Assembly (NCBI GenBank): GCA_903904835.1
Contig: CAIVEI010000008.1
Location: 1-36,187, forward strand
From: an uncultured Schlesneria sp.
Lineage (GTDB): Bacteria; Planctomycetota; Planctomycetia; Planctomycetales; Planctomycetaceae
DNA length: 36,187 bases
Reading direction: 5' to 3'
Below, in pieces: positions 4,001-35,857 of the stretch. Position numbers and translations under genes: made by a program. The notes beneath the pieces were generated by a model. It ran no database searches. It was not told the DNA's origin and was given only the letters and a program-made list of their open reading frames with translations. Within the stretch, counting starts at the first letter, position 1, and the number at the start of each line of letters is the position of its first letter.

Positions 4001-7000
4001 CTACTGAGGCTTGCTGAACTCGCCAGCGTCGTATTTCTTCCAGAATTCATCGGCGGGAATCGGTTCATCGTTACCGATGGTTTTTAGACTTTTCATCTTT
4101 CGTATTACGTCGGTCCCCTTCGAGATGGCCTTGGGCGTAAAATGGAATGCGTCCAATTTTATCCCTTCGAGCGGTGACAAGTCAGAGACATTGGTCGCAG
4201 AGACATTAAGTGCGGTCAGTGGCATTCCCTTCAGCGGCGATAGATCAGAAATCGGTGTATGGTTGGAAGTCAGATGAGCCAGCGGCATTCCTCGGAGCGG
4301 CGAAAGATCCACAACAGGCGTGCCAGCAATATTGAGTCCACCCAACATCATCCCTTTCAACGGGGAAAGGTCTTCGACTTTCGTTCCCCACATCATTAAC
4401 AGCTTCAGCGGCATCCCTTGGAGGGGCGACAAGTCGGAAACTTCGGTGCTTCCAATCCATAAATCTTCCAGAGCCATTCCTTGAAGTATTGAAAGATTCG
4501 TTACCTGAGTCCCCGCCAAGTTCAAATGTGTGAGCGGTACTCCTTTGAGCGGCGTCAAATCAGACAATCTCGGGTTATTACCGCTGTGTAAACTCGTTAT
4601 CTTCATCCCATTGAGGGGTGAGAGATCACGCAACTTTCCTCGCTCCGGTGAACTACCCCAACAGCCAAGAAAATCCAACCCGGCCAACGCACGAACCGGA
4701 GAGACATCTATTACATCGTCGGTCGTGAAAGACATCATCGTCACAATTCCATTTGTGACCACTGGAGACCACTCTCCGAAGTTATTCGTCAGCTTCCCAT
4801 CAAACCCCGGATTCAACTCCCTCAGCTTCTTGGAAACTGCCTCCAACTGCTGCTCGGCAGGCATGGCCTGTACGTCCTTGACCCATTGATCGAAGCCAGG
4901 TTTCTGAAAGGCAAGCGGCTTGCCGAACTCACCCGCGTCGTATTTCTTCCAGAATTCTTCGGGGGAGATTTGACCCCACGCATGAGTGCCAAATCGTTCA
5001 ATGGTCTTCATATTTCGAACGACATCAATTCCGTTAGTGATGTTTTTTGGCGTAAACATCAAATGAGTGAGCTTCATCCCTTTGAGAGGCGACAGGTCTG
5101 ACACTGGCGTCTCGCTGAACCCTGTGGTCCTCAAAGACATTCCGCTTCCACTGAGCGGCGACAAGTCTGCCACTTTCGTTTGGTTGAAATAAACGAAATT
5201 CAACGGCATTCCCCTGAGCGGCGAAATGTCAGAGACAAGTGTGCTATCAAACGCGAAGAATGACAGGCTCATCCCCTTCAGGGCCGAAAGATCAGAAATC
5301 TTTGTGTGTGTGATACCGAGGTTGGTCAAGTGCATCCCTCGAAGTGGCGAAAGATCCGTGACTTGCGTTCCGTCGCACACGAGCAACCAAATCGACGTCT
5401 CTCGTAGCGGGGAGAGGTCTGAGACTTTTGTGTTCAAGACAAGCAAATTTGCCAGAGGCACTCCTCTGAGTGGTGACAAGTCTGACAATTGCCCTTTTTC
5501 CGGGCCACTACCACTGCAATTCAGAGAAAACAAACCTGTGAGAGCTCTCACGGGCGAAATGTCCGTCACATTGTCTGTGACAAAACCAAGCCGTTTGACG
5601 ACTCCGTTTTCGATGAGCGGAGGCTTGGTTTCGCCGTCTGTCAGCTTCCCATCGAACCAAGGATTCAACTCCATCAACTTCTTGGACACCGCGTCGATCT
5701 GCTTCTCGGCAGGCATGGCGTGCACCTCTTTCACCCATTGATCGAAACCCGCTGTCTGAAAGGCGAGTGGTTTCGATGATGGTGACGGCTTGCCGCCCGG
5801 TATCGCTTCCTTCACCAGCGGTTTCAACTCTGCCCTGATCGCCTCGGTCTTCCCCGATTTGATCTCAAAGCTGTCGGTGAAGATTTCAAATCCGTCCTTC
5901 TGAACCTTCAGTCGATGCTTCCCCTCAACGACCGTGATCTTGATCGGCCGGTCGTCCCCCTTGCGGGTAATTTCAACCGTGTCCTTTTCATTCAGCACTT
6001 GGACGTCAGCATCAGGCTCAGTCACCGTGACGACCAATGTGCCGTCCCCAGACCTGGTCTTCATGTTGATGACCACACCGGCCAGCAGGAACAACACGCC
6101 CAAAGCCGCAGCACCGGTCAGAAGCCGTTTTTTCTGGTCGTTAAGAAACGAGTTCTTCCCTTTTTTTGCAGGTTTGTTCGGCAGCGACTTCGTGCGAACG
6201 GGTTTTGCCGGTGCTGAGGGAAGGTTGTCGAGAAAGTTTGTGAAGTTCGCCGCCGTTGACGGTTCGACCGACTTGTTTGTGGACGAGGCGTTTGATTTGA
6301 CGACCGTTTCCCGTGTTGGGGTCGCCAATGTCATCGCGGGCGACGAAACCGATTTGGCTTTTACAAGAATCGTTTGTTCGGTTGCCGAAGACTGTAAGGC
6401 AACTGTATTCGGTTGATCACGACGACAGCCTTCCAGAGCGACAATCACTTCTGCCATCGTCTGATAACGGTCTTCGATTTTCTTGGCAACCATCTTCCTG
6501 AAGACCGCTTCAAGCGGTTCCGGGACCTCGTCACGAGCAGAACGCAGCGACGGAATCGGCTGTTCCCGATGAGCCAACAACTTTTTCATGAGCGTGTCGC
6601 CTTCGTATGTTGGCGTGCCAGTCAGTAGATAAAACAGCGAACAGCCCAACGCATAGATATCAGTCCGGGCATCAGCCGTCTTTGTGTCCATCGCCTGTTC
6701 CGGGGACATGTAATCGACCGTCCCCATCACCGCGCCTGTGTTTGTCAGCTCGGCCTGCGTCGTAGCCTCGCTATCACTATTCAGGCGAGCCAGCCCCATA
6801 TCCAGAATCTTGACCGTTCCCTCTGTGTCCAAAAGGAGATTGGCCGGTTTAATGTCCCGATGCACAATCCCCTTCCTGTGGGCGGCTTCCAGTCCTTTTG
6901 CAGCTTGCAGGATGTAGTTCACCGCTGTCTCAACCGGGAACCGCCCATTCTTTTTGACAAGGGCTGACAAGTCACTCCCGTCCACCAGTTCCATCACAAG

Positions 7001-7432
7001 GAAGTGAACGCCATTGGCACAGTCGGCATCGTGAGCCGCAACAATATTGGGATGACTGATTTTTGCTGCTGCCTTGACTTCCCGCTCAAACCGGGCGATT
7101 GCGTCTTTGTCTTTCGTCAAGGCGGATGGCAAAACCTTGACCGCGACCAGGCGATCCATTCGCAGATGCCGGGCTTTGAACACCTGCCCCATGCCACCCG
7201 CTCCGATCTTTTCCATCAGGACATAGTTGCCCAGAACAAGCGATTTGCCCTTCCCTTTCGAAACTTCTTCCGCTTGAAACTTCGTCAGTTTTTTCTTGCG
7301 TACCAGTTCCAGGGCCAGTTCTTCGGCGCTCGTGGGTGATGCCTTTGGGGGCAAAAAGTCCTTCAGAGTCTCGCCAGCGATCACACCGCTGTCTTCAAGC
7401 TGTTGAACAAACTTTTCAAGAGGGACGGCCAT
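4001..7432 (-). CDS. Membrane Ser/Thr protein kinase with PEGA domain and two LRR modules
   Basis: This 1143-residue protein begins with a planctomycete-type leader (1-68). A Hanks-type kinase domain follows (about 70-335) with glycine loop GAGGMG (77-82), Lys99 in VAVKV, Glu117, [10 protein letters not shown] (Asp193), DMG instead of DFG (Asp211), and activation segment [13 protein letters not shown] Ser/Thr/Pro-rich linker (340-430), one transmembrane helix (about 437-457) and a PEGA domain (464-538) come next. The outer part is two copies (556-837 and 840-1143) of a module with consensus [16 protein letters not shown], then [11 protein letters not shown]. Each module is followed by internalin-like repeats of about 23 residues (T-x-VSDLSPLxGMPL) and [10 protein letters not shown]. 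The kinase should be cytoplasmic and the repeats outside the membrane, suggesting a receptor. Substrate and ligand are unknown. It lies 103 bp after its paralogue. Confidence 0.92.
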
Positions 7433-7534
7433 CGCCAGAAGCCTCGTTCAAAGGCAAGGACATGCAACGAAAAAGATTCTCTACGAAAGTCACGCCATTT
7501 GCCAGAGAATTGGCTCTGTCACCGCCCACCGATC

Positions 7535-10500
7535 CTACTTCTTCTTTTCGACTTGTTTCCAGAACTCTGCTGATGATTTATTGTTGATCGACTCCAACGA
7601 CTTGATGGAGCGGAGGATTTCTGTGTCCCGTTCGGGCTTGAAGTCGAACTTAACGGTCTTAAGTGGCAGTTCCCTAAGTATTGAAAAGTCCGAAACTTTC
7701 GTGCCGTGACATAACAATTCTTGCAGCGGCATCCCACTCAGCACTGAAATATCGGAAACTTTTGTCTCACCAAAAGACAAGTATTCGAGCTTCATGTTCT
7801 TCAGAGGCGACAAATCACTGACTTGTGTATGTCCGAAGCTAATCCGAGTGATCTTCATTCCATCCAAAGGAGAAAGGTCATAGACTTTTTTCGACTCGTC
7901 AAGGTAAAGCTCCTTTAAAGGCATCCCTTTCAGCGGCATTAAATGCGAGACATTGGAACCCATACAAGAAAGTACAGTGAGCGGCATTCCGCTAAGAGGT
8001 AACAAATTAGAAACTTGAGTGAAATCACAACGAAGCGAAGCCAATTTCATGTCGTTTATCGGTGAGAGATCGGAAATCTTTCCCTTGCCGATTCCGCTTC
8101 CAGAACAACTGAGATCTGTCAAACCAGTTAATGCCCGCACCGGAGAAATATCTTTCACGTCGTTTGAAAGAAAGCCAATGCGTTTAACAACATCTTTCTC
8201 GATGACGGGAGTGCCAACCCCTCCAGCATCCGTCAACTTCCCATCAAAACCCGGATTGAGCTCCTTCAACTTCTTGCTGACGGCTTCCACCTGCTTCTCG
8301 GCAGGCATCGCTTGCACGTGTGTAATCCAACTTTCGAAACCGGGAATTTGGAAGGCCAGCTTCGATGGCTTTTTGAACTCACCAGCGTCGTATTTCTTCC
8401 AGAACTGATCGGGAGTGAATTTGTTTTTATCGTCCCAACCAATTCCGATGCTCTTGAGACTTTTCATCTGGCGAATGCCGTCTAACCCACTGAGGCTCGT
8501 TGCGGGGGTGAGAATCAAATTTTCCAACTCAATTCCCCGCAGTGGCTCAACGTTCGTGACCTTGGTCCCAAGAATATTCAAGTCCTTCAGCGGCATCCCT
8601 TTGAGTGGCGACAAATCGAACACCGGAGTTTGCCCGAAGTCTGCGACTTTCAGCGTCATTCCGATCAACGGTGTTAAATTTGATACGTTAGTACCTGGGC
8701 ATACAATCTCTCGTAAAGGCATTCCCGCTAAAGGAGCGATGTCTGAAAGTGAGAGATTCTGTGAGCATTCGATACGAACGAGGTGCATCCCATTCAGCGG
8801 CGACAGGTCGAACAATCCGCCGTTTGCACGTGTGCCAATGTTGCTGCTTCCCCTGCAAACCAGAACCTTTAATCCCGTTAACGCCCTCAAAGGGGATAGA
8901 TCGCTTAACCGATCCGTATAGACTTTCAGTTCCGTGACCACCCCTTCGACAATCGACGGCGGACCTTGTGCGTAGGAATTTGCGAGCTTCCCATCAAATC
9001 CCGGATTCAACTCCATCAACTTTGTCGAGACGGCCTTCAACTGCTTCTCGGCTGGCAGGGCTTGCACATCTTTGACCCATTGCTGGAAGGCGGGACTGTT
9101 CCATTTTTCGGAAGAACTGTTCTGGAGGGCAATTTCTGCGATCCTGATATTTCGGAATCGCACCTCATTTTTCTGAGATTGCAGGCCGATCCGGCCTTTT
9201 GTTCGTTTCCATGCGGGATAGGCGTTGGGCCGACTTGCCAATTCGTTCACGTCCAGCTTGAGAACTTCTGTCCCATTGACTGCGATCTTTAATTTGCGGG
9301 AGTGAAGGTTCATTTCCAGCGAATTCCACGCATCACCCGACTTTTCTTGGGCAAGTTGTTTCACGGGAATAAATCCCGCATCTACGGTGTTTGCCAGGTC
9401 CGACCAGACCCCTCCCGTGGCCCAGCCGGCAATCTGACCGATCTGAACTTCCAGATGTTCTTTGTCTGCAGGTGAAGCGAGAATGGCAACGCCGCTGTTT
9501 GACCCTTCTTCTGTCTGATACTCCAATCTCAACACAAATTCGGCATATTCATTATTTGTGAGCAGCCAACCGCCACCTTTTCCGGTTGCCGTTAAGACAT
9601 GTTTGGAAGCGTCCACTTTCCAGTTACTTTGGTCCCCTTCTCGTGTCCATCCTGTAAGATCACGACCATTAAAAATGTCCACGAATTTGAGGTCGTCAAA
9701 TGGATTTGAACTGTCGACCGTCCCGGCCACCGCTGCGTTCACGAGCGGTTTCAACTCCGCCCGGATCGCCTCGGTCTTCCCCGACTTAATCTCAAAACTG
9801 TCCGTGAAGATTTCAAAGCCGTCCTTCTGAATCCTCAGCCGATGTTTACCCGGTACGACCTTAATCTTGATCGACCCTTCCTGTCCCTTGCGGGTAATCT
9901 CAACCGTGTTCTTTTCGTTCAGCACTTCGACGTCAGCATCAGGCTCAGTGACCGTAACGACTAAAGTGCCGTCCCCAGCCCTGGTCTTCATGTTCATGAC
10001 GACTCCGGCCAGCATGAATAACGCCCCCAGAACCGCAGCACCGATCAGAAGCTGTTTTTTCTGGTCGTTGATAATCGAATTCGTCCCATTTGTGACGGGC
10101 TTTTTCGGCGGCGCCTTCGTGCGGATGGGTTTCGTCGGTGTCGAGGGGAGATTGTCGAGAAAGTTTGAGAAGCTCGCCACCGGGGACGAATCGACCGACT
10201 TGCTTGTCGATGAGTTGTTTGAGTTGACCATCGTTTCCCGTGTCTGGGATGGCAACGTCATCACTGGTGACGAACCCGATTTGTTTTGTACAAGAATCGG
10301 CTGGCTGGTCTCTGAAGACTGGATGGCAACGGTGTTCGCTGGACCAGAACGAATGCATTCCAGGGCGGCAATCACTTCCGTCATCGTCTGGTAACGATCT
10401 TCGATTTTCTTTGCGACCATCTTCTTGAAGACTGCGTCAAGCGGTTCCGGGACATCGGCACGTGAAGAACGTAACGACGGTATCGGTTGTTCCCGATGAG

Positions 10501-11359
10501 CCAGCAACTTCATCATGAGCGTGTTGCCCTGATAGGTTGACGTGCCGGTCAGCAGATAAAAGAGCGAACAACCTAACGCATAGATATCTGTACGGGCATC
10601 AGCCGTCCTCGTGTCCATCGCTTGTTCGGGGGACATGTAATCGACAGTCCCCATCACGATACCGGTGTTTGTCAGGCCGGCTTGTGCTGCAACGTCATTA
10701 TCACTACTCAGGCGAGCCAGCCCCATATCCAGAATCTTCACTGCTCCCTTTTTGTCGAGAAGCAGGTTGGCTGGTTTAATGTCCCGGTGAACAATCCCTT
10801 CGGCATGAGCGGCTTCCAGTCCTTTGGCGGCTTGCAGGATGTAGTTGACCGCCGTCTCAACCGCTAAACATCCATCCTTTTCGACAAGGGCCGACAGGTC
10901 ACTTCCATCCACGAGTTCCATCACAAGAAAGTGGACACCATTGGCACAGTCAGCATCGTGAGCCGCGACAATATTGGGATGACTGATCTTCGCGGCCGCT
11001 TTCACTTCCCGTTCAAATCGGGCGATTGCGGCGTTGTCTTTCGTCATGTGGACTGGCAGCACCTTGACCGCGACAAGGCGATCCATCCGCAGATGCCGAG
11101 CTTTATACACCTGCCCCATGCCGCCCGCCCCGATTTTTTCCATCAAGACGTAGTTGCCCAGAACTAGCGTTTTTCCCCTCCCTTTAGAAACAACCTCCGC
11201 CTGAAATTTCGTCAGTTTTTTCTTGCGGACCAGTTCCATCGCCAGCTCTTCGGCGCTCTGGGGAGATGCCCTGGGGGGCAAAAAGTCCTTCAGCGTTTCG
11301 CCAGAGACGATGCCGCTGTCTTCAAGCTGCTGAATAAACTTTTCGAGAGGGAGGGCCAT
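7535..11359 (-). CDS. Membrane Ser/Thr protein kinase with PEGA, DUF1080 and LRR modules
   Basis: This 1274-residue paralogue of the next gene downstream keeps the same order: leader, kinase (about 70-335; GAGGMG, Lys99, [25 protein letters not shown]), linker, transmembrane helix (437-457) and PEGA (464-539). At the PEGA/LRR junction it has an added 3-keto-disaccharide hydrolase-like (DUF1080) domain at about 555-745. That domain starts [13 protein letters not shown] and ends [19 protein letters not shown]. Two [17 protein letters not shown] modules with internalin-like repeats follow (752-998, 999-1274), and the last lacks the [10 protein letters not shown] tail, ending FWKQVEKKK. The extracytoplasmic DUF1080 and LRR parts suggest sensing of a carbohydrate or surface ligand, which is inference. 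No strong ribosome binding site is visible. Confidence 0.92.
9125..9709 (-). other. DUF1080 (3-keto-disaccharide hydrolase-like) domain segment unique to one kinase paralogue
   Basis: This is the coding segment for residues about 551-745 of the larger kinase. It shows the jelly-roll signature of the family: F-NGRDLTGW near the start, [29 protein letters not shown], and GRIGLQS before FRNIRI. The smaller paralogue passes directly from PEGA to the LRR module at the equivalent point, so the domain was gained or lost after duplication. Confidence 0.85.
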
Positions 11360-19651: not shown

Positions 19652-19864
19652 GATGTGTACTCGCAATATCAGGTTGAAGGGAGTTAGAGACGTGATGACT
19701 TAATTCTAGGCAAATCTCAGATTCAGACAAGGTCGGCATCTGGCAGTCACTTGAAATTAAAATCGAAAAAACAGGGCTCAGATTTTTGGGCTCGGTTCGT
19801 TCAAATTAATTGATCCGAGTACAATCTTGCGAAATTGTTCGGAATTAAAAACTTGGAAGACCCG

Positions 19865-20911
19865 ATGACGGATGTTCGAACGGAAGTATTTCGTATTCTT
19901 GATGCCGCTGGCAATCGGACGCGTGAAGGACTGCGCGTCATCGAAGACTTTGTGAGATTTGAACTGAACGACGGCCACTTCTCGCAAATCCTCAAAGACC
20001 ATCGGCACAAACTGGCTTCAATCGTCTCAGAACTACCTGCCGCCAGTTTGCTGGCAGCTCGCGATACGCTCTGTGACGTCGGGACCACGATCTCAACTCC
20101 GGCAGAATACGTCAGGACTTCATCAACCGATGTCGTCGCGGCCGCGTTCAAACGGGTGCAAGAAGCGCTGCGCACGCTGGAAGAATACAGCAAGATTGTC
20201 GATCCGAGGCTCGCACCGCAATTCGAACAACTGCGGTATCAGCTCTACACGACCGAAAAGGCTGTGTTACGAACCAACACTGCCAGAAAACAATTTGAAG
20301 AAATTCAACTGTATCTGCTGGTGACCGCTTCCGAATGCAAAAATGGATTCGAAACAGTCGTCAAAGCGGCTCTCGATGCAGGCATAAAGATCATCCAGTC
20401 GCGAGAAAAGTCTTTGACGGATCGAGAATGGGTTTCTCGCGCCAGAACACTGCGAAAGTGGACGTCGGAAGCGGGAGTACTGCTCATCATCAACGACCGT
20501 CCCGATATCGCGCTGGTGGTCCAAGCGGACGGAGTTCATCTCGGTCAGGACGAGTTCTCTGTTCAAGATGCGAGAAGCGTCGTCGGTCCAGATCGGCTGA
20601 TCGGGGTTTCAACCCACTCGATCGAGCAAGCCAGACAGGCGGTCCTTGACGGAGCTGATTATCTCGGCGTCGGTCCCACATTTCCGACCAGTACCAAGTC
20701 GTTTACCGAGTTTCCCGGCCTTCAATTTATCCGGCAAGTGGCAGGGGAAATTCAACTGCCGTGGTTCGCCATTGGTGGCATCAACGCAAATAACATTTCC
20801 GAAGTGACGAATGCAGGAGCTGACCGGGTCGCCGTCAGCTCCGCAATCTGTCACAGTCCGACCCCGAACGAAACGACTCGCCAGATGATCACGTTAAGTG
20901 GTATCCGCTGA
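19865..20911 (+). CDS. thiE: Thiamine phosphate synthase with N-terminal ThiD2-like domain
   Basis: This 348-residue protein is a fusion. Residues about 5-140 (RILDAAGNRTREGLRVIEDF, split by helices, to LRYQLYTTEKAVL) match the ThiD2-type domain found fused to ThiE and reported as an HMP-phosphate kinase. Residues about 145-348 are ThiE: LLVTASE, IQSREKSLTDREW, IINDRPDIALVVQADGVHLGQ, GVSTHS, GADYLGVGPTFPTSTK and FAIGGINANNI. Together they would make HMP-pyrophosphate and couple it to thiazole phosphate to give thiamine phosphate. The ATG at 19865 has GGAAG at about 5 nt; a TTG ten codons upstream is less likely. No TPP riboswitch is recognisable upstream. Confidence 0.93.
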   Translation: MTDVRTEVFRILDAAGNRTREGLRVIEDFVRFELNDGHFSQILKDHRHKLASIVSELPAASLLAARDTLCDVGTTISTPAEYVRTSSTDVVAAAFKRVQEALRTLEEYSKIVDPRLAPQFEQLRYQLYTTEKAVLRTNTARKQFEEIQLYLLVTASECKNGFETVVKAALDAGIKIIQSREKSLTDREWVSRARTLRKWTSEAGVLLIINDRPDIALVVQADGVHLGQDEFSVQDARSVVGPDRLIGVSTHSIEQARQAVLDGADYLGVGPTFPTSTKSFTEFPGLQFIRQVAGEIQLPWFAIGGINANNISEVTNAGADRVAVSSAICHSPTPNETTRQMITLSGIR

Positions 20912-22710: not shown

Positions 22711-22777
22711 CGTTTGCGGACTCCGTTCATCGCAGTTGACGATCGCCGTCGAGTTTCGACTTTGTTTTTGCCGACGC

Positions 22778-24103
22778 TCAGGCTTTAAAAATCTTTTCGC
22801 GACCCACTTTAACATTTTTCGTGGCATTTCGCGTGTCCAGCACCATGCGGCTGTGCTGGACGATGAAATCGTGATCGTAGGCGGAATGGTCGGTCGAGAT
22901 CAGCACACAGTCTTGTGCGGCCAGATACTCGGGTGTCAGTGCCTGACTCGTCATCGCTGGCAGATCAGGGTAATGACGCATCTTTGGCAGCGTTGGAATG
23001 TGCGGATCGTTGTAACTCAGGACCGCGCCCCGTTTGGAAAGCAGTTTCATCAGTTCGAAGGATGGGCTTTCCCTGGGATCATCGACATCTTTTTTATACG
23101 CCGCACCAAGAATCGCAATCTTGCTTCCCTTGATCGGTTTTCCTGCGTCATTCAAGAACTCGGCAAGTTGATTGACGACGTAGGTTGGCATGTGAGTATT
23201 AATCTCGCCCGCCAACTCGATGAACCGGGTCTGTTCACCCCATTTTCGGGCAAGCCATGTCAGATAAAACGGGTCGATCGGAATGCAGTGGCCACCCAGG
23301 CCAGGTCCCGGATAAAAGGCTTGAAAACCGAATGGTTTCGTCTTGGCCGCATCAATCACTTCCCAGACATCAATGCCCATCTTGTCGTAGAGCATTTTCA
23401 ATTCGTTGACCATCGCGATATTCACCGCGCGGTAGGTGTTTTCCAGGATCTTGGCCGCTTCAGCGATCTCCATGCTGGAAACCCGGATCACTTTCACGAC
23501 GGCATAACCGTACATGGTACTCGCCAGGTCTCCGCTGATAACGTCATAGCCACCGACGACTTTGGGAATGGACGATGCTTCGAAATTCGGATTTCCAGGA
23601 TCTTCACGTTCGGGGCTGAAGGCAAGAAAGTAGTCCTTTCCTGCGGTCAGACCGGTTGCATTCAAAACAGGAAGGACGTTTTCGCGAGTTGTCGTCGGAT
23701 GGGTGGTACTTTCAAGGACGACAAGCTGCCCTTTTCGCAATGTCTTTGCGATGGAATGAGCCGTCCCTTCAATGTAGCTGAGATCAGGATCACGGCTTTC
23801 GTTCAGCGGCGTCGGGACACAGATAATAATGCAATCTGCTTCGCCCAGTCGGCCCATATCGGACGTCGGTTCAAATTGTTTATCCTGAATCAGCTTGGCG
23901 ATCGCAGAACTGTCAATGTGCTTGATATAGCTCTGGCCTGCTTTCAGCTTATCGACTTTCGACTGATCGACGTCAAAGCCCATTGTCTTAAACCCGGCCC
24001 TGACGAACGCTCGGATCAATGGCAGACCGACATAACCCAGGCCGATCACTCCAATTACGGCCGTCTTGCTCGCGATTTTCTCTCCAAGTCCGTGTGTCGT
24101 CAT
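22778..24103 (-). CDS. UDP-N-acetylhexosamine 6-dehydrogenase (WbpA/WecC type)
   Basis: This 441-residue enzyme has the NAD-binding GVIGLGYVGLPL (18-29), CVPTPLNESRDPDLSY, ESTTHPTTT, AFSPEREDPGNPNF (161-174) and the catalytic cysteine in GPGLGGHCIPIDPFYL (Cys273). Lys-containing ILENTYRAVNIAMVNEL is also present. The PERxDPGN pattern fits oxidation of UDP-GlcNAc-type sugars to the uronic acid rather than UDP-glucose. It supplies a UDP-HexNAc uronic acid precursor for surface polysaccharide in the cytosol. The ATG at 24103 fits the family start; a TTG ten codons upstream is possible. The antisense frame is also long and open but is a shadow. Confidence 0.93.
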   Translation of the reverse strand: MTTHGLGEKIASKTAVIGVIGLGYVGLPLIRAFVRAGFKTMGFDVDQSKVDKLKAGQSYIKHIDSSAIAKLIQDKQFEPTSDMGRLGEADCIIICVPTPLNESRDPDLSYIEGTAHSIAKTLRKGQLVVLESTTHPTTTRENVLPVLNATGLTAGKDYFLAFSPEREDPGNPNFEASSIPKVVGGYDVISGDLASTMYGYAVVKVIRVSSMEIAEAAKILENTYRAVNIAMVNELKMLYDKMGIDVWEVIDAAKTKPFGFQAFYPGPGLGGHCIPIDPFYLTWLARKWGEQTRFIELAGEINTHMPTYVVNQLAEFLNDAGKPIKGSKIAILGAAYKKDVDDPRESPSFELMKLLSKRGAVLSYNDPHIPTLPKMRHYPDLPAMTSQALTPEYLAAQDCVLISTDHSAYDHDFIVQHSRMVLDTRNATKNVKVGREKIFKA

Positions 24104-24291
24104 GGCCCATCCGTTTCTGTGCTTTGTGAACAAAAAGGGTCGTTCGGAGTTCGTTTGTCGGAGGTCGTTGTTCCACGATGAAAAACGAAAAGCCGATCCA
24201 CCCTCATCGAGAGTCTAGAAAAACAGTGGCAAGGCGCGAAGCGACCACAGCCTGTTTACCCCTCCGTTGGACGATAAACAACGTTACGCCA

Positions 24292-30874: not shown

Positions 30875-30992
30875 CGTTTGACGGTGTTTTAAGTGACATG
30901 GGTTTAACTCGTAATTGAAAATGTTATTGTGTCGAATCGCAGAAAATGCATGAATAAACCGGGCTAGCCGCATGTTTCACGAAAGGGGCAAT

Positions 30993-31775
30993 ATGCCTTC
31001 CACATCAAAAGTTGCCATTGTCACCGGCGGCGGAACTGGAGTTGGTCGATCAACGTCGCTCGCACTGGCGCGACTTGGTTATCACGTTGTGATCAACTAT
31101 TCCCGTTCAAAGGACGAAGCCCTTAAAACTATCTCCGAAATCCAGGAACATGGCGTCCAGGGATTCGCCGTTATGGCAGATGTAGCGGATGATGCGGCAT
31201 GTCGGAATATGGTCTCAGAAACCATCGCGAAATTCGGCAGGATCGACGTGCTCGTCAACTGTGCCGGAACGACTCAATTTATTCCTTTCAATAATCTGGA
31301 AGATGTCACAGACGATGTGTGGGACCGTCTGTTCAAGGTCAACGTCGTCGGCGCGTTTCACTGTGCTCGCGCCGTGCGCGAACCCATGCTGAATGCGGGG
31401 GGCGGTGTCATCATCAATGTTTCCAGCGTCGCAGCGCAATTGGGACAGGGAAGTTCAATCCCCTACTGCTGCACCAAAGCGGCGCTCGACAACCTGACCG
31501 TCTCGCTCGCCAGAACGCTGGCTCCCCAGATCCGTGTGAATGGTGTCGCACCCGGCTTCATCGCCGGCCGCTGGACGGAAGCGGGACTTGGCGACAACTA
31601 CAACCGAATCAAACAGGCCTACGAACAGACACTGCCGCTGGGTCGGGTCTGCGATCCTGATGATGTCGCCGCCTGTATCATCAGCCTGATTACAGGTAGC
31701 ACGCTCGTCACGGGACAGACACTGACGGTCGACAGCGGTATGATGATCTCGGGTTTTCAAGTGAAATTCAGTTGA
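30993..31775 (+). CDS. Short-chain dehydrogenase/reductase (SDR)
   Basis: This 260-residue classical SDR has the cofactor motif TGGGTGVGRS (11-20), the NCAG motif (Asn89), Asn117 in KVNVVG, the active-site Ser145 in INVSSVAA, and YCCTK with Tyr158 and Lys162. It ends VTGQTLTVDSGMMISGF, typical of FabG-like members. Substrate cannot be predicted; a ketoacyl or sugar/alcohol reductase are both plausible. The ATG at 30993 has AAAGGGG close upstream and fits family length better than the ATG seven codons earlier. It is followed after 158 bp by the EutBC-like gene in the same direction. Confidence 0.92.
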   Translation: MPSTSKVAIVTGGGTGVGRSTSLALARLGYHVVINYSRSKDEALKTISEIQEHGVQGFAVMADVADDAACRNMVSETIAKFGRIDVLVNCAGTTQFIPFNNLEDVTDDVWDRLFKVNVVGAFHCARAVREPMLNAGGGVIINVSSVAAQLGQGSSIPYCCTKAALDNLTVSLARTLAPQIRVNGVAPGFIAGRWTEAGLGDNYNRIKQAYEQTLPLGRVCDPDDVAACIISLITGSTLVTGQTLTVDSGMMISGFQVKFS

Positions 31776-31933: not shown

Positions 31934-34219
31934 ATGTTCAATCGTCGCGACTTTCTGACCGCAGTCTCGACACCCCTTTTACTAGGGGGCGGGCTGAAGA
32001 TCAGTCCCGCCTGGGCCGATCACGAAGATCAAGGAGTCGACGTCGGACCATTGAGCGATGGCGAAGATCTGTTTGCTTACATCCGTCGAACACGCGGAAA
32101 ATTCGACGTTCGTCAGTACCAGAAATTGCTCGGTGCTGCCAACGAATTTAAAGACGGAGACGCGATCGTTGAGGTCGCTGCCGTCGATGAACGTTCGCGA
32201 TCTCGCGCACGATCGCTGCTCGCCAATACGAAGATTGCTGAACTTGTTGATCATCCACCCTGGCAAGATGACTTATCGCGCTGGGTTGACGGATTCGCAT
32301 CAAAAGAGCCGTTGAGATCCTGGAGCAACCGGACGGTCGGACAACTGAAAAACTATTTGATTGCCGCCAGCGAAGCGGAAATTCATGAAACCCTTCCGGG
32401 ACTGACCAGCGACCTGATTGCCTGTCTCGTTCGATTGATGACGAACGAAGAATTGATCTCCCTGAGCAAGCGGATCTTTCACTCCCTGCCCGGTTCGAAA
32501 ATCGGAGCGAAAGGATATCTCGGTGCGAGGATTCAACCGAATTCCCCGACCGATCATCTCGACGACATTCGGTTCCAGGTTTTCGACGCTTTTTCTTATG
32601 CCGTTGGCGACGTCCTGCTCGGGACCAATCCCGTATCGAGTGATCCTCGTTCAGTCGCCGCCGTCGAACGGGCGTTGCAAGACATTCTCAAAACATTTGA
32701 AATTGATCATGTCATCCCTCATTGCGTACTGGCCCACATCGACGTTCAGGCGGAAGTTGAACGAGTTCAGCCGGGTTCGACCGAATTCTGGTTTCAAAGC
32801 ATCGCCGGGAACGATGCCGCGAATGCGACCTTCGATATCACCCTCGACAAAATGAGGTCTTACGCACAAAGCCGTACGGGTCGATATGGCCTGTATCTTG
32901 AATCGGGACAGGGAGCCGATTTTACCAACGGTCACAGCCACGGCTGCGACATGGTGTTTCATGAGTCACGCAAATATGGATTCGCACGAGGCCTGACTCA
33001 TACAATCGCCGCTTCGAAGCAGATCCCTGCCAATCAAGTCTGGCTGCATCTCAACGATGTCGCGGGATTTATCGGACCCGAAGTCTTTCGAACTCGCGAA
33101 CAGCTTGTCCGCTGCTGCCTGGAAGACATCGTGATGGGGAAACTGCACGGACTGACCATCGGGCTGGATGTCTGTTCGACGCTGCATATGGATCTCTCGC
33201 TGGATGACCTGGACTGGTGCCTGGATCAGATTGCCCCTGCCAACCCCGCCTACCTGATGGGATTGCCCACTAAGATCGATCCGATGCTGGGCTATTTAAC
33301 AACTGGATATCAGGACCATGTCCGACTGCGTGAAAAATTCGGCTTCCGTGTTGATGATCGAATGTGGTCGTTCTTCCAGCGGCTGGGGGTTATTGGACCT
33401 GATGGAGGACCAACCGAACACTTTGGCGACCCGAACTGGGTCTACCTGCAATACCGTCGTTGTAAGAACGATTCTCGTACCGATGCGGTGATCCTCGCCG
33501 AATCCCGAAATCTGATTTCAGAAGTTCGCCAGCGCGGTCTCTTCATCGCAGAAGGTTACGGAAATCGTCCCGGCGATCTGTCACCCAAACTTCGCAGTGA
33601 AATTCAAACGGTTTACGACGATGCAAAACAGTGTATCTGGAAGGAGTGGAATCCCGACTTCGTCAAACAGATTCCTAACGCCATTCATTTGTCGACGCGT
33701 TCAGCGAACCGCCAGGATTACATCCTGCATCCGACGACAGGCGAACATTTGTCGGACGAATCGCTACGTCGCATCAAGCAGTTTCGCGTTGATGACAAAC
33801 AAGCATCCAACGTCGTAATCGTCGTCTCCGAAGGACTGAACGCCCTGGCCATGATGGACGACGGGAATCTTTTACCGCTGCTCGAAGAACTTCGACCACT
33901 CCTTACAAAATCAGGATTGGCGGTTGCCCCCGCTCCACTGGTCGCTACAAGCGGTCGAGTTCGTGCCGGTTATCGGATCGGTGAAGTCCTGTTCGGTGGC
34001 CTTCCCGGTTCAAGGACGATCATCCATCTGATTGGTGAACGACCTGGTTCTGGCCATCACACCATGTCGGCCTATGTGACAAGTGCCGAGGGGACGACAT
34101 GGGGACGGCAAAACGAAGTCGATCACAACATCACGAAGGTTGTCTCCGGCATCGGAGTCACCGCTCTTGCCCCACAAAAAGCAGCTAGTGACATCGCGGC
34201 TTTAATCACGTCACGTTGA
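31934..34219 (+). CDS. Fused ethanolamine ammonia-lyase EutB-EutC with Tat-type signal
   Basis: Residues 1-28 form a twin-arginine-type signal: MFNRRDFLTAVSTPLLLGGG, then a PAWA cleavage-like site. About 52-510 matches EutB: GAANEFKDGDAI, WSNRTVGQLKNYL, ARIQPNSPTDHLDDI, GTNPVSSD, HCVLAHIDVQ, LYLESGQGADF, AGFIGPEVF, ARGL and CCLEDIVMGKLHGLTIGLD. About 552-758 matches EutC: VVIVVSEGLNALAM, GRVRAGYRIGE, IHLIGERPGSGHHTMSAY. Residues corresponding to the EutB substrate pocket (Arg199, Gln201, Asn232, Glu323) are kept. EutBC is a B12-dependent lyase turning ethanolamine into acetaldehyde and ammonia, and normally its two subunits are separate and cytosolic. Compared with E. coli EutB there is an insert near 350-375. 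The start has only a weak ribosome site. No eutA, eutD or shell gene is nearby. Confidence 0.88.
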   Translation: MFNRRDFLTAVSTPLLLGGGLKISPAWADHEDQGVDVGPLSDGEDLFAYIRRTRGKFDVRQYQKLLGAANEFKDGDAIVEVAAVDERSRSRARSLLANTKIAELVDHPPWQDDLSRWVDGFASKEPLRSWSNRTVGQLKNYLIAASEAEIHETLPGLTSDLIACLVRLMTNEELISLSKRIFHSLPGSKIGAKGYLGARIQPNSPTDHLDDIRFQVFDAFSYAVGDVLLGTNPVSSDPRSVAAVERALQDILKTFEIDHVIPHCVLAHIDVQAEVERVQPGSTEFWFQSIAGNDAANATFDITLDKMRSYAQSRTGRYGLYLESGQGADFTNGHSHGCDMVFHESRKYGFARGLTHTIAASKQIPANQVWLHLNDVAGFIGPEVFRTREQLVRCCLEDIVMGKLHGLTIGLDVCSTLHMDLSLDDLDWCLDQIAPANPAYLMGLPTKIDPMLGYLTTGYQDHVRLREKFGFRVDDRMWSFFQRLGVIGPDGGPTEHFGDPNWVYLQYRRCKNDSRTDAVILAESRNLISEVRQRGLFIAEGYGNRPGDLSPKLRSEIQTVYDDAKQCIWKEWNPDFVKQIPNAIHLSTRSANRQDYILHPTTGEHLSDESLRRIKQFRVDDKQASNVVIVVSEGLNALAMMDDGNLLPLLEELRPLLTKSGLAVAPAPLVATSGRVRAGYRIGEVLFGGLPGSRTIIHLIGERPGSGHHTMSAYVTSAEGTTWGRQNEVDHNITKVVSGIGVTALAPQKAASDIAALITSR

Positions 34220-35239: not shown

Positions 35240-35857
35240 ATGATGTTTCGATCTGTTTTTGCGTTTCGCACCTGGTCCTGCGTTGTTGCGAGTCTTTTTC
35301 TGGCCGGCGTGCTGAGTGCTTTGAGCACCGGCAATGCCCTTGCTGGTAGTATCACTTACGACAACACCACATTCACCGGCACCTCGACCGACTTAACAAC
35401 AGTCGGCAACCAAACACTACCTTATACAGACGCATCAAGCCGGGTCGTCAGTAAAGTATCAGGGACCGTTCCCGGTATCTTCAGTACCCTCGGGGTTGTT
35501 ATGCCGGCAAGCTCCGTCATTAGCTTTACTAATCTGGCAAGCGGCACGACGGATTTCGGGTTCGATGCAAAGTCCGCATCTCCAAGCAGTTCGCACATCA
35601 CATCAGTCTCTTTTGACAACGGAGACTCATACACCACATCGCTAAATCTCGCTAGCGGCAATACGTTTTACCACTTTTCCGACACCGCTTCATTCACAGC
35701 AGCGACCGTAACATTTACGGGGGGCACTAATTATTTGGGCGACTTCCGTACCGCAGCCGCTACTTCATCCGTCCCCGAACCTTCCTCGCTGGCTTTGCTA
35801 GCTGCCGGGGCAATGTTCGCTGGTGTTTCGGCATGGCGTCGCCGCAAGGCTAGCTAA
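35240..35857 (+). CDS. PEP-CTERM sorting-domain protein
   Basis: This 205-residue exported protein has a Sec signal peptide (SVFAFRTWSCVVASLFLAGV, then SALSTGNALAG). A Ser/Thr/Gly-rich beta-strand region without cysteine bridges follows (about 36-170). The C-terminal PEP-CTERM signal is VPEPSSLALLAAGAMFAG, then SAWRRRKAS. Such proteins are recognised and cut by exosortase, then anchored or released at the cell surface, often with extracellular matrix. Repeated phrases such as SGTTDFGF and SVSFDNGDSYTT suggest a small beta-sandwich like other matrix PEP-CTERM proteins. The ATG at 35240 follows a GGAGAG about 9 nt away. Its flanks are two copies of a mobile-type repeat. Confidence 0.9.
   Translation: MMFRSVFAFRTWSCVVASLFLAGVLSALSTGNALAGSITYDNTTFTGTSTDLTTVGNQTLPYTDASSRVVSKVSGTVPGIFSTLGVVMPASSVISFTNLASGTTDFGFDAKSASPSSSHITSVSFDNGDSYTTSLNLASGNTFYHFSDTASFTAATVTFTGGTNYLGDFRTAAATSSVPEPSSLALLAAGAMFAGVSAWRRRKAS

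Follow-up and report, generated by a model that had tools for sequence, protein, structure and literature searches.

The closest described enzyme, the ethanolamine ammonia-lyase (EAL) EutBC, yields acetaldehyde and ammonia, and its adenosylcobalamin (AdoCbl) is damaged in turnover; the damaged cofactor is cleared by EutA in a process that requires ATP (PMC5821096). An encapsulation peptide has been described at the N-terminus of EutC (PMC12487888), as has a signal for targeting to the Eut shell (PMC3299773). Twin-arginine (Tat) signals, whose consensus is S/T-R-R-x-F-L-K (PMC3383694), are present on corrinoid-dependent respiratory dehalogenases (PMC12908670). EAL itself is known, and our searches of the open-access literature turned up no description of an exported or Tat-tagged EAL.

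The gene analyzed here lies on a 36,187-nucleotide stretch of DNA from an uncultured Schlesneria sp., which we call the window, and its features are listed in Table 1. An earlier note on this DNA had proposed that EutB and EutC are fused in one reading frame. Searching the halves against the Pfam models confirmed this, as both matches were significant and exceeded the cut-offs: in the 761-aa ORF, EutB matched residues 59–494 (profile positions 3–433 of 435, E = 1.3e-128, 430 bits, cut-off 25) and EutC residues 556–759 (profile positions 31–222 of 235, E = 1.2e-32, 113.6 bits, cut-off 25.8). The ORF also passed the NCBIfam cut-off for EutB (561.6 vs. 554). Its score for the NCBIfam EutC equivalog was 90, below a cut-off of 230 that is a naming threshold for stand-alone EutC and not a mechanistic feature, and for this reason we regard the EutC half as divergent. 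A search of the sequences of solved structures returned five matches, all of them EAL subunits: the heavy chains 2qez and 3abo (E = 8.7e-60 and 2.5e-57) and three light chains at about 3e-7. No second EutB match was present in the source genome (8.18 Mb, given as 99.97% complete), and the closest relatives of the ORF, 90–91% identical, are found in uncultured Schlesneria MAGs.

Table 1. Features of the fused EAL gene and its upstream neighbor, in window coordinates.
Feature	Position	Strand	Evidence or remarks
Fused, Tat-tagged EAL gene	31934..34219	+	ATG start, 761 aa plus stop, no internal stop
Twin-arginine signal peptide, residues 1–28 (NRRDFL, hydrophobic stretch, AWA)	31934..32017	+	Called from sequence; pattern in 57/61 intact N-termini
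Variable spacer, residues 29–51	32018..32086	+	dN/dS 0.22–0.25 vs. L002–L004
EutB half, residues 52–510	32087..33463	+	R160, Q162, N193, S247, E287, F329, D362 and C364 (E. coli numbering) all kept
Linker joining the halves, residues 511–551	33464..33586	+	E. coli EutC residues 1 to ~60 have no aligned counterpart
EutC half, residues 552–758	33587..34207	+	GERPG, RV and GL motifs in common with split EutC; Glu633 at the position of Asp167 of split EutC
Short-chain dehydrogenase (SDR)	30972..31775	+	158 bp upstream of the EAL gene; also adjoins it in L002, not conserved over the 50 loci compared

To place this gene among its relatives, matches were collected from the family of the window, from the phylum and from plasmids. 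EAL matches were present in 96 of 150 genomes of the family (the source genome included). According to a tally of the match table, 60 of these 96 carry the type found in the window (group 1, at least 50% identity, some of them as fragments), and the remaining 36 hold a split EutB/EutC (group 2), a second fused form with about 33% identity to it (group 3), or mere fragments. When the fetched loci were scanned for domains, groups 1 and 3 were confirmed as fused. In the phylum as a whole, matches at 1e-20 were obtained in 30 of 392 genomes, 16 of them belonging to group 1 by identity. A tblastn search of a plasmid collection matched 149 records, 32 of which cover at least 80% of the protein; the best 25 of these 32 come from Sinorhizobium, Ensifer and Pararhizobium (51.7–54.8% identity), and the other seven are 27–31% identical. 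Four of the best 25 were read, and all four carry a Tat-type signal (e.g., SRRELL, TRRDLL). To frame this enzyme as planctomycete is too narrow: the Tat-tagged fusion is also present on megaplasmids of Sinorhizobium and Pararhizobium (L121–L124). Sinorhizobium meliloti Rm41 and SM11 have the copy on pSymA. The pSymA record of strain 1021 had no EAL match, whereas in the plasmid search the same query protein found other pSymA records; in one pSymA, genes for a phosphoketolase and an alcohol dehydrogenase lie less than 10 kb from the fused EAL. Three of the best 25 plasmid copies are annotated in gene tables, and they are named only eutB, so both fusion and export are easily overlooked.

The N-terminus of the ORF reads MFNRRDFLTAVSTPLLLGGGLKISPAWA-DH and contains twin arginines, a hydrophobic stretch and A-W-A; the N-terminal sequence MFNRRDFLTAVSTPLLLGGGLKISPAWADH has the complete layout of twin arginine, hydrophobic stretch and A-x-A. 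Compared with the S/T-R-R-x-F-L-K consensus, Asn replaces S/T and Thr replaces K. The Tat-type call was judged by the motif pattern (RR-x-[FLIVMT] plus a hydrophobic stretch) and by its conservation among relatives. The sample, drawn from part of the group-1 genomes, consisted of 63 distinct group-1 sequences besides that of the window, with the one-half fragments L009, L110 and L111 excluded; three sequences (L006, L029 and L116) are cut at contig ends, which leaves 61 intact N-termini with that of the window. We observed the pattern in 57 of these 61, compared with 535 of 12,200 shuffled N-termini (4.4%). This agrees with the proposal of the earlier note that a Tat-type signal precedes the EutB half: fused homologues bearing the signal were sought across Planctomycetota, and instead of lacking it throughout, the family conserves it. 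Two sequences for which the script had mis-picked the start (L028 and L032) both show QWNRRDFVQA when read directly, and the fragment L009 also starts with an RR signal. When 26 EALs of the split or second fused type were read with the start codons considered, not one had an RR signal; a cruder script had flagged 4 of 24, but there the RR precedes the probable start codon or is not followed by a hydrophobic stretch.

The four exceptions are of different kinds. L042 and L043, which belong to other families of the phylum, and L007, from a MAG labelled Phycisphaera, have no signal, and L008 starts with a Sec-like signal, MRKFTQKGIIAGAALAAFVCLSTYAGA, in place of the RR one. The latter gene (L008:7920–10190) is a fused EAL from the MAG "bacterium isolate S015_6". 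For the 28-codon signal of the window, dN/dS was 0.05–0.21 against L002–L004 and 0.39 against the more distant L005, where dS elsewhere is saturated. TatC was found in the source genome (E = 3.3e-60).

Taking EutB of E. coli MG1655 as the reference for the pocket, R160, Q162, N193, Q246, S247, F258, E287, F329, D362, C364, L402 and Y404 are invariant across all 64 group-1 sequences, and M392 is replaced by Ile in four of them. We take the binding roles of the pocket positions, including R160, Q162, N193, E287, F329 and D362, from crystallography; R160 is also named in the title of a reference. The retention of Asp362 in group 1 is not automatic, given that all eight group-3 sequences have lost it (seven to Ala, one to Gly). 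For EutC, we compared the 38 columns in which at least 85% of the split EutC rows agree, the 12 "split" rows including the group-1 fragment L110, which accounts for most of the 12/13 values. The same residue is kept in all 64 group-1 sequences at 13 of these columns (P137, G140, G168, L169, R206, V207, G214, G227–G231 [GERPG] and Y241), and EutC Asp167 is replaced by Glu in 9 of 64, the window among them. Against L002–L004, dN/dS was 0.07–0.10 for the EutB half and 0.09–0.14 for the EutC half, values that point to purifying selection on both. In view of the low dN/dS and the invariant pocket, we rejected chance or decay as an explanation of the gene, in line with the earlier view that it is not a decayed pseudogene. 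None of the three outcomes named in the earlier note as refuting its reading was observed. An AlphaFold model of the fused protein built from nine sequences was poor (mean pLDDT 60.9), with the cobalamin cleft beyond its reach; a Foldseek search with this model returned EutB chains first (E = 5.8e-18) and EutC chains at ranks 8–11, with an rmsd near 10 Å.

A FastTree phylogeny (700 columns; 72 sequences, 62 from group 1 and 10 from group 3, two of the latter being repeats) was rooted with group 3. L043 and then L042 branch at the base, with SH-like support of 0.832 for group 1 overall and of 0.988 and 0.995 for the clades nested within it. The rhizobial copies have L008 as their sister (support 0.999), and the planctomycete clade (0.981) includes L007, whose exact position is weakly supported (0.42–0.87). 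As neither L043 nor L042, the deepest-branching fused relatives, carries a signal, fusion probably came first and the export signal later; most simply, L008 then exchanged its signal and L007 lost it, an order that depends on the rooting.

The absence of a eut operon nearby, also claimed in the earlier note, was borne out by a Pfam scan of 19 different window proteins (EAL included), which revealed no other eut gene. Neighboring genes were clustered for 50 of 51 group-1 loci (L100 was left out), using a crude longest-ORF picker and keeping families present in at least four loci. The recurrent neighbors were a Tat-tagged protein, presumably DUF1501-like, in 11 loci, an SDR in 8, a zinc dehydrogenase in 5, and two different large proteins, each in 4. 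These families look generic; a dedicated operon was rejected, and we propose none of them as a partner. Across the 50 loci, the EAL has no conserved neighbor for a downstream step on the aldehyde, and no Rfam match, to a cobalamin riboswitch or otherwise, was obtained in the window or in the loci of 14 relatives. The gene appears to act alone. Elsewhere in the window, we noted a tandem pair of very large serine/threonine kinases that contain leucine-rich repeats (4001–11359; 1143 and 1274 aa), the second of which also bears a 3-keto-disaccharide hydrolase domain; a single frame with ThiD2 and thiamine-phosphate synthase domains (19835–20911); long ORFs overlapping on opposite strands (22736–24181; 481 aa on the + strand, with no Pfam match, and 451 aa on the − strand); and, downstream of the EAL gene, a PEP-CTERM protein (35240–35857).

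Regarding the cofactor, the source genome has a PF01923 cobalamin adenosyltransferase and an AdoCbl-dependent NrdJ, and EutA, CobS and methylmalonyl-CoA mutase were each without a match. Since CobS is unmatched, the cobamide is likely scavenged and costly to export. The idea of an adenosyltransferase dedicated to the exported EAL was unsupported, as NrdJ also needs AdoCbl. In the family, EutA exceeded the cut-off in 9 of 150 genomes. If the two 150-genome surveys are taken as the same draw, the only group-1 genomes among these carriers are G023 and G101, both of which also hold a group-3 enzyme. Group-3 genes were fetched from six genomes of the family, and each of the six has EutA, lying beside that gene on the same contig in G036, G039, G041 and G101, and it was not over the cut-off in 30 of the 36 genomes with other EAL types. 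EutA therefore accompanies mainly group 3, and group 1 manages without it, as do most other EAL carriers in the family. The earlier remark that no reactivase gene lies nearby was supported, but it is a weak argument given the rarity of EutA in the family, and for the same reason we rejected the absence of EutA as proof of work outside the cytoplasm.

From the sequence evidence, we consider it probable that this gene encodes a single-chain, AdoCbl-dependent EAL that works outside the cytoplasm; its activity, cofactor state and location are inferred. The chain would fold in the cytoplasm, where the cleft between EutB and EutC would close over AdoCbl within one polypeptide, so that the enzyme would probably be loaded with cofactor before export. 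The Tat system would then move the folded protein across the inner membrane, and owing to the fusion one signal would export both halves at a 1:1 ratio. The signal may be cleaved after Ala28 or act as an anchor. In E. coli, EAL forms a large hexamer. Given that Tat cargo measures 20–70 Å (PMC4273604), the exported enzyme would have to be smaller than that hexamer; multi-subunit enzymes are also moved by Tat through hitchhiking (PMC4273604). Further points against this reading are the low NCBIfam score and changed columns of the EutC half, the signal-less L042, L043 and L007, and the cost of exporting a scavenged cobamide. Once outside, the enzyme would act on ethanolamine that is released from lipids or crosses the outer membrane; the resulting acetaldehyde and ammonia could diffuse or be taken up. 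Because ethanolamine would be split outside the cytoplasm, import of the charged amine would be unneeded and part of the aldehyde would be kept outside. Without ATP or a reactivase there, the spent cofactor may be exchanged passively, or the enzyme may be disposable. More broadly, we lean slightly toward a family, shared by planctomycetes and rhizobial megaplasmids, in which an AdoCbl radical enzyme is loaded inside the cell, shipped folded via Tat and run outside without ATP-driven reactivation, the fusion having enabled export with a single signal. With such an enzyme, ethanolamine would be broken down, and the toxic aldehyde formed, away from the cell interior, as an alternative to a microcompartment, and the question arises of how the enzyme survives without cofactor repair of the EutA type.

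The Sec-like signal of L008 is hard to square with loading in the cytoplasm, since the Sec route carries unfolded protein. That signal, together with the unmatched CobS and the lack of a dedicated partner gene recurring near the 50 loci, would fit an enzyme exported in the apo form that receives its cobalamin, perhaps as the adenosyl form from other cells, outside the cytoplasm. We regard this as unlikely, because the Tat-type signal, which belongs to a route for folded cargo, is found in 57 of 61 N-termini and the Sec-like one in only one. Slightly less likely still is that the exported protein has been repurposed, either for binding or scavenging cobamides or as a lyase for another amino alcohol. 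The divergent EutC half, the absence of a conserved downstream aldehyde gene and the apparent dependence of the genome on external cobamide are consistent with such a change; nevertheless, the pocket is invariant in 64 of 64 sequences, whereas group 3 has replaced Asp362 in all eight. Finally, it is very improbable that the enzyme is cytoplasmic and its RR stretch conserved for some reason other than export: L042, L043 and L007 keep the enzyme core without a signal, which means that the enzyme can do without one, but the complete signal layout occurs in two phyla whose N-termini otherwise have little in common, and in L008 it is replaced by another export-type signal.

The exported single-chain EAL that we favor resembles EutBC (PF06751 and PF05985; E. 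coli 3abo, Listeria EutB 2qez) in the eutB–eutC order, the pocket residues and the GERPG and RV motifs. It differs in being a single chain rather than the usual two subunits, in its Tat-type signal, in the replacement of the N-terminal (encapsulation) region of EutC by the fusion linker, and in having no adjoining eut gene and no EutA match in the genome. The second fused group (L044, L056 and L101–L106, from Planctomycetota) likewise has EutB and EutC in one frame; in contrast, it is only about 33% identical, has no signal, carries Ala or Gly instead of Asp362, and is accompanied by EutA in six of six family genomes. This group possibly uses a different substrate, and a Methylocystis plasmid match (H51) possibly belongs to it. 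The Tat-tagged planctomycete neighbors, which we take to be members of the DUF1501 family, have the same RR-x-F style of signal on proteins unrelated to EAL. Respiratory corrinoid reductive dehalogenases (RdhA) contain iron-sulfur clusters and carry out chemistry unrelated to that of EAL, and to our knowledge they use no adenosyl-radical chemistry. Like the fused EAL, however, they are cobamide enzymes that carry a twin-arginine signal (PMC12908670).
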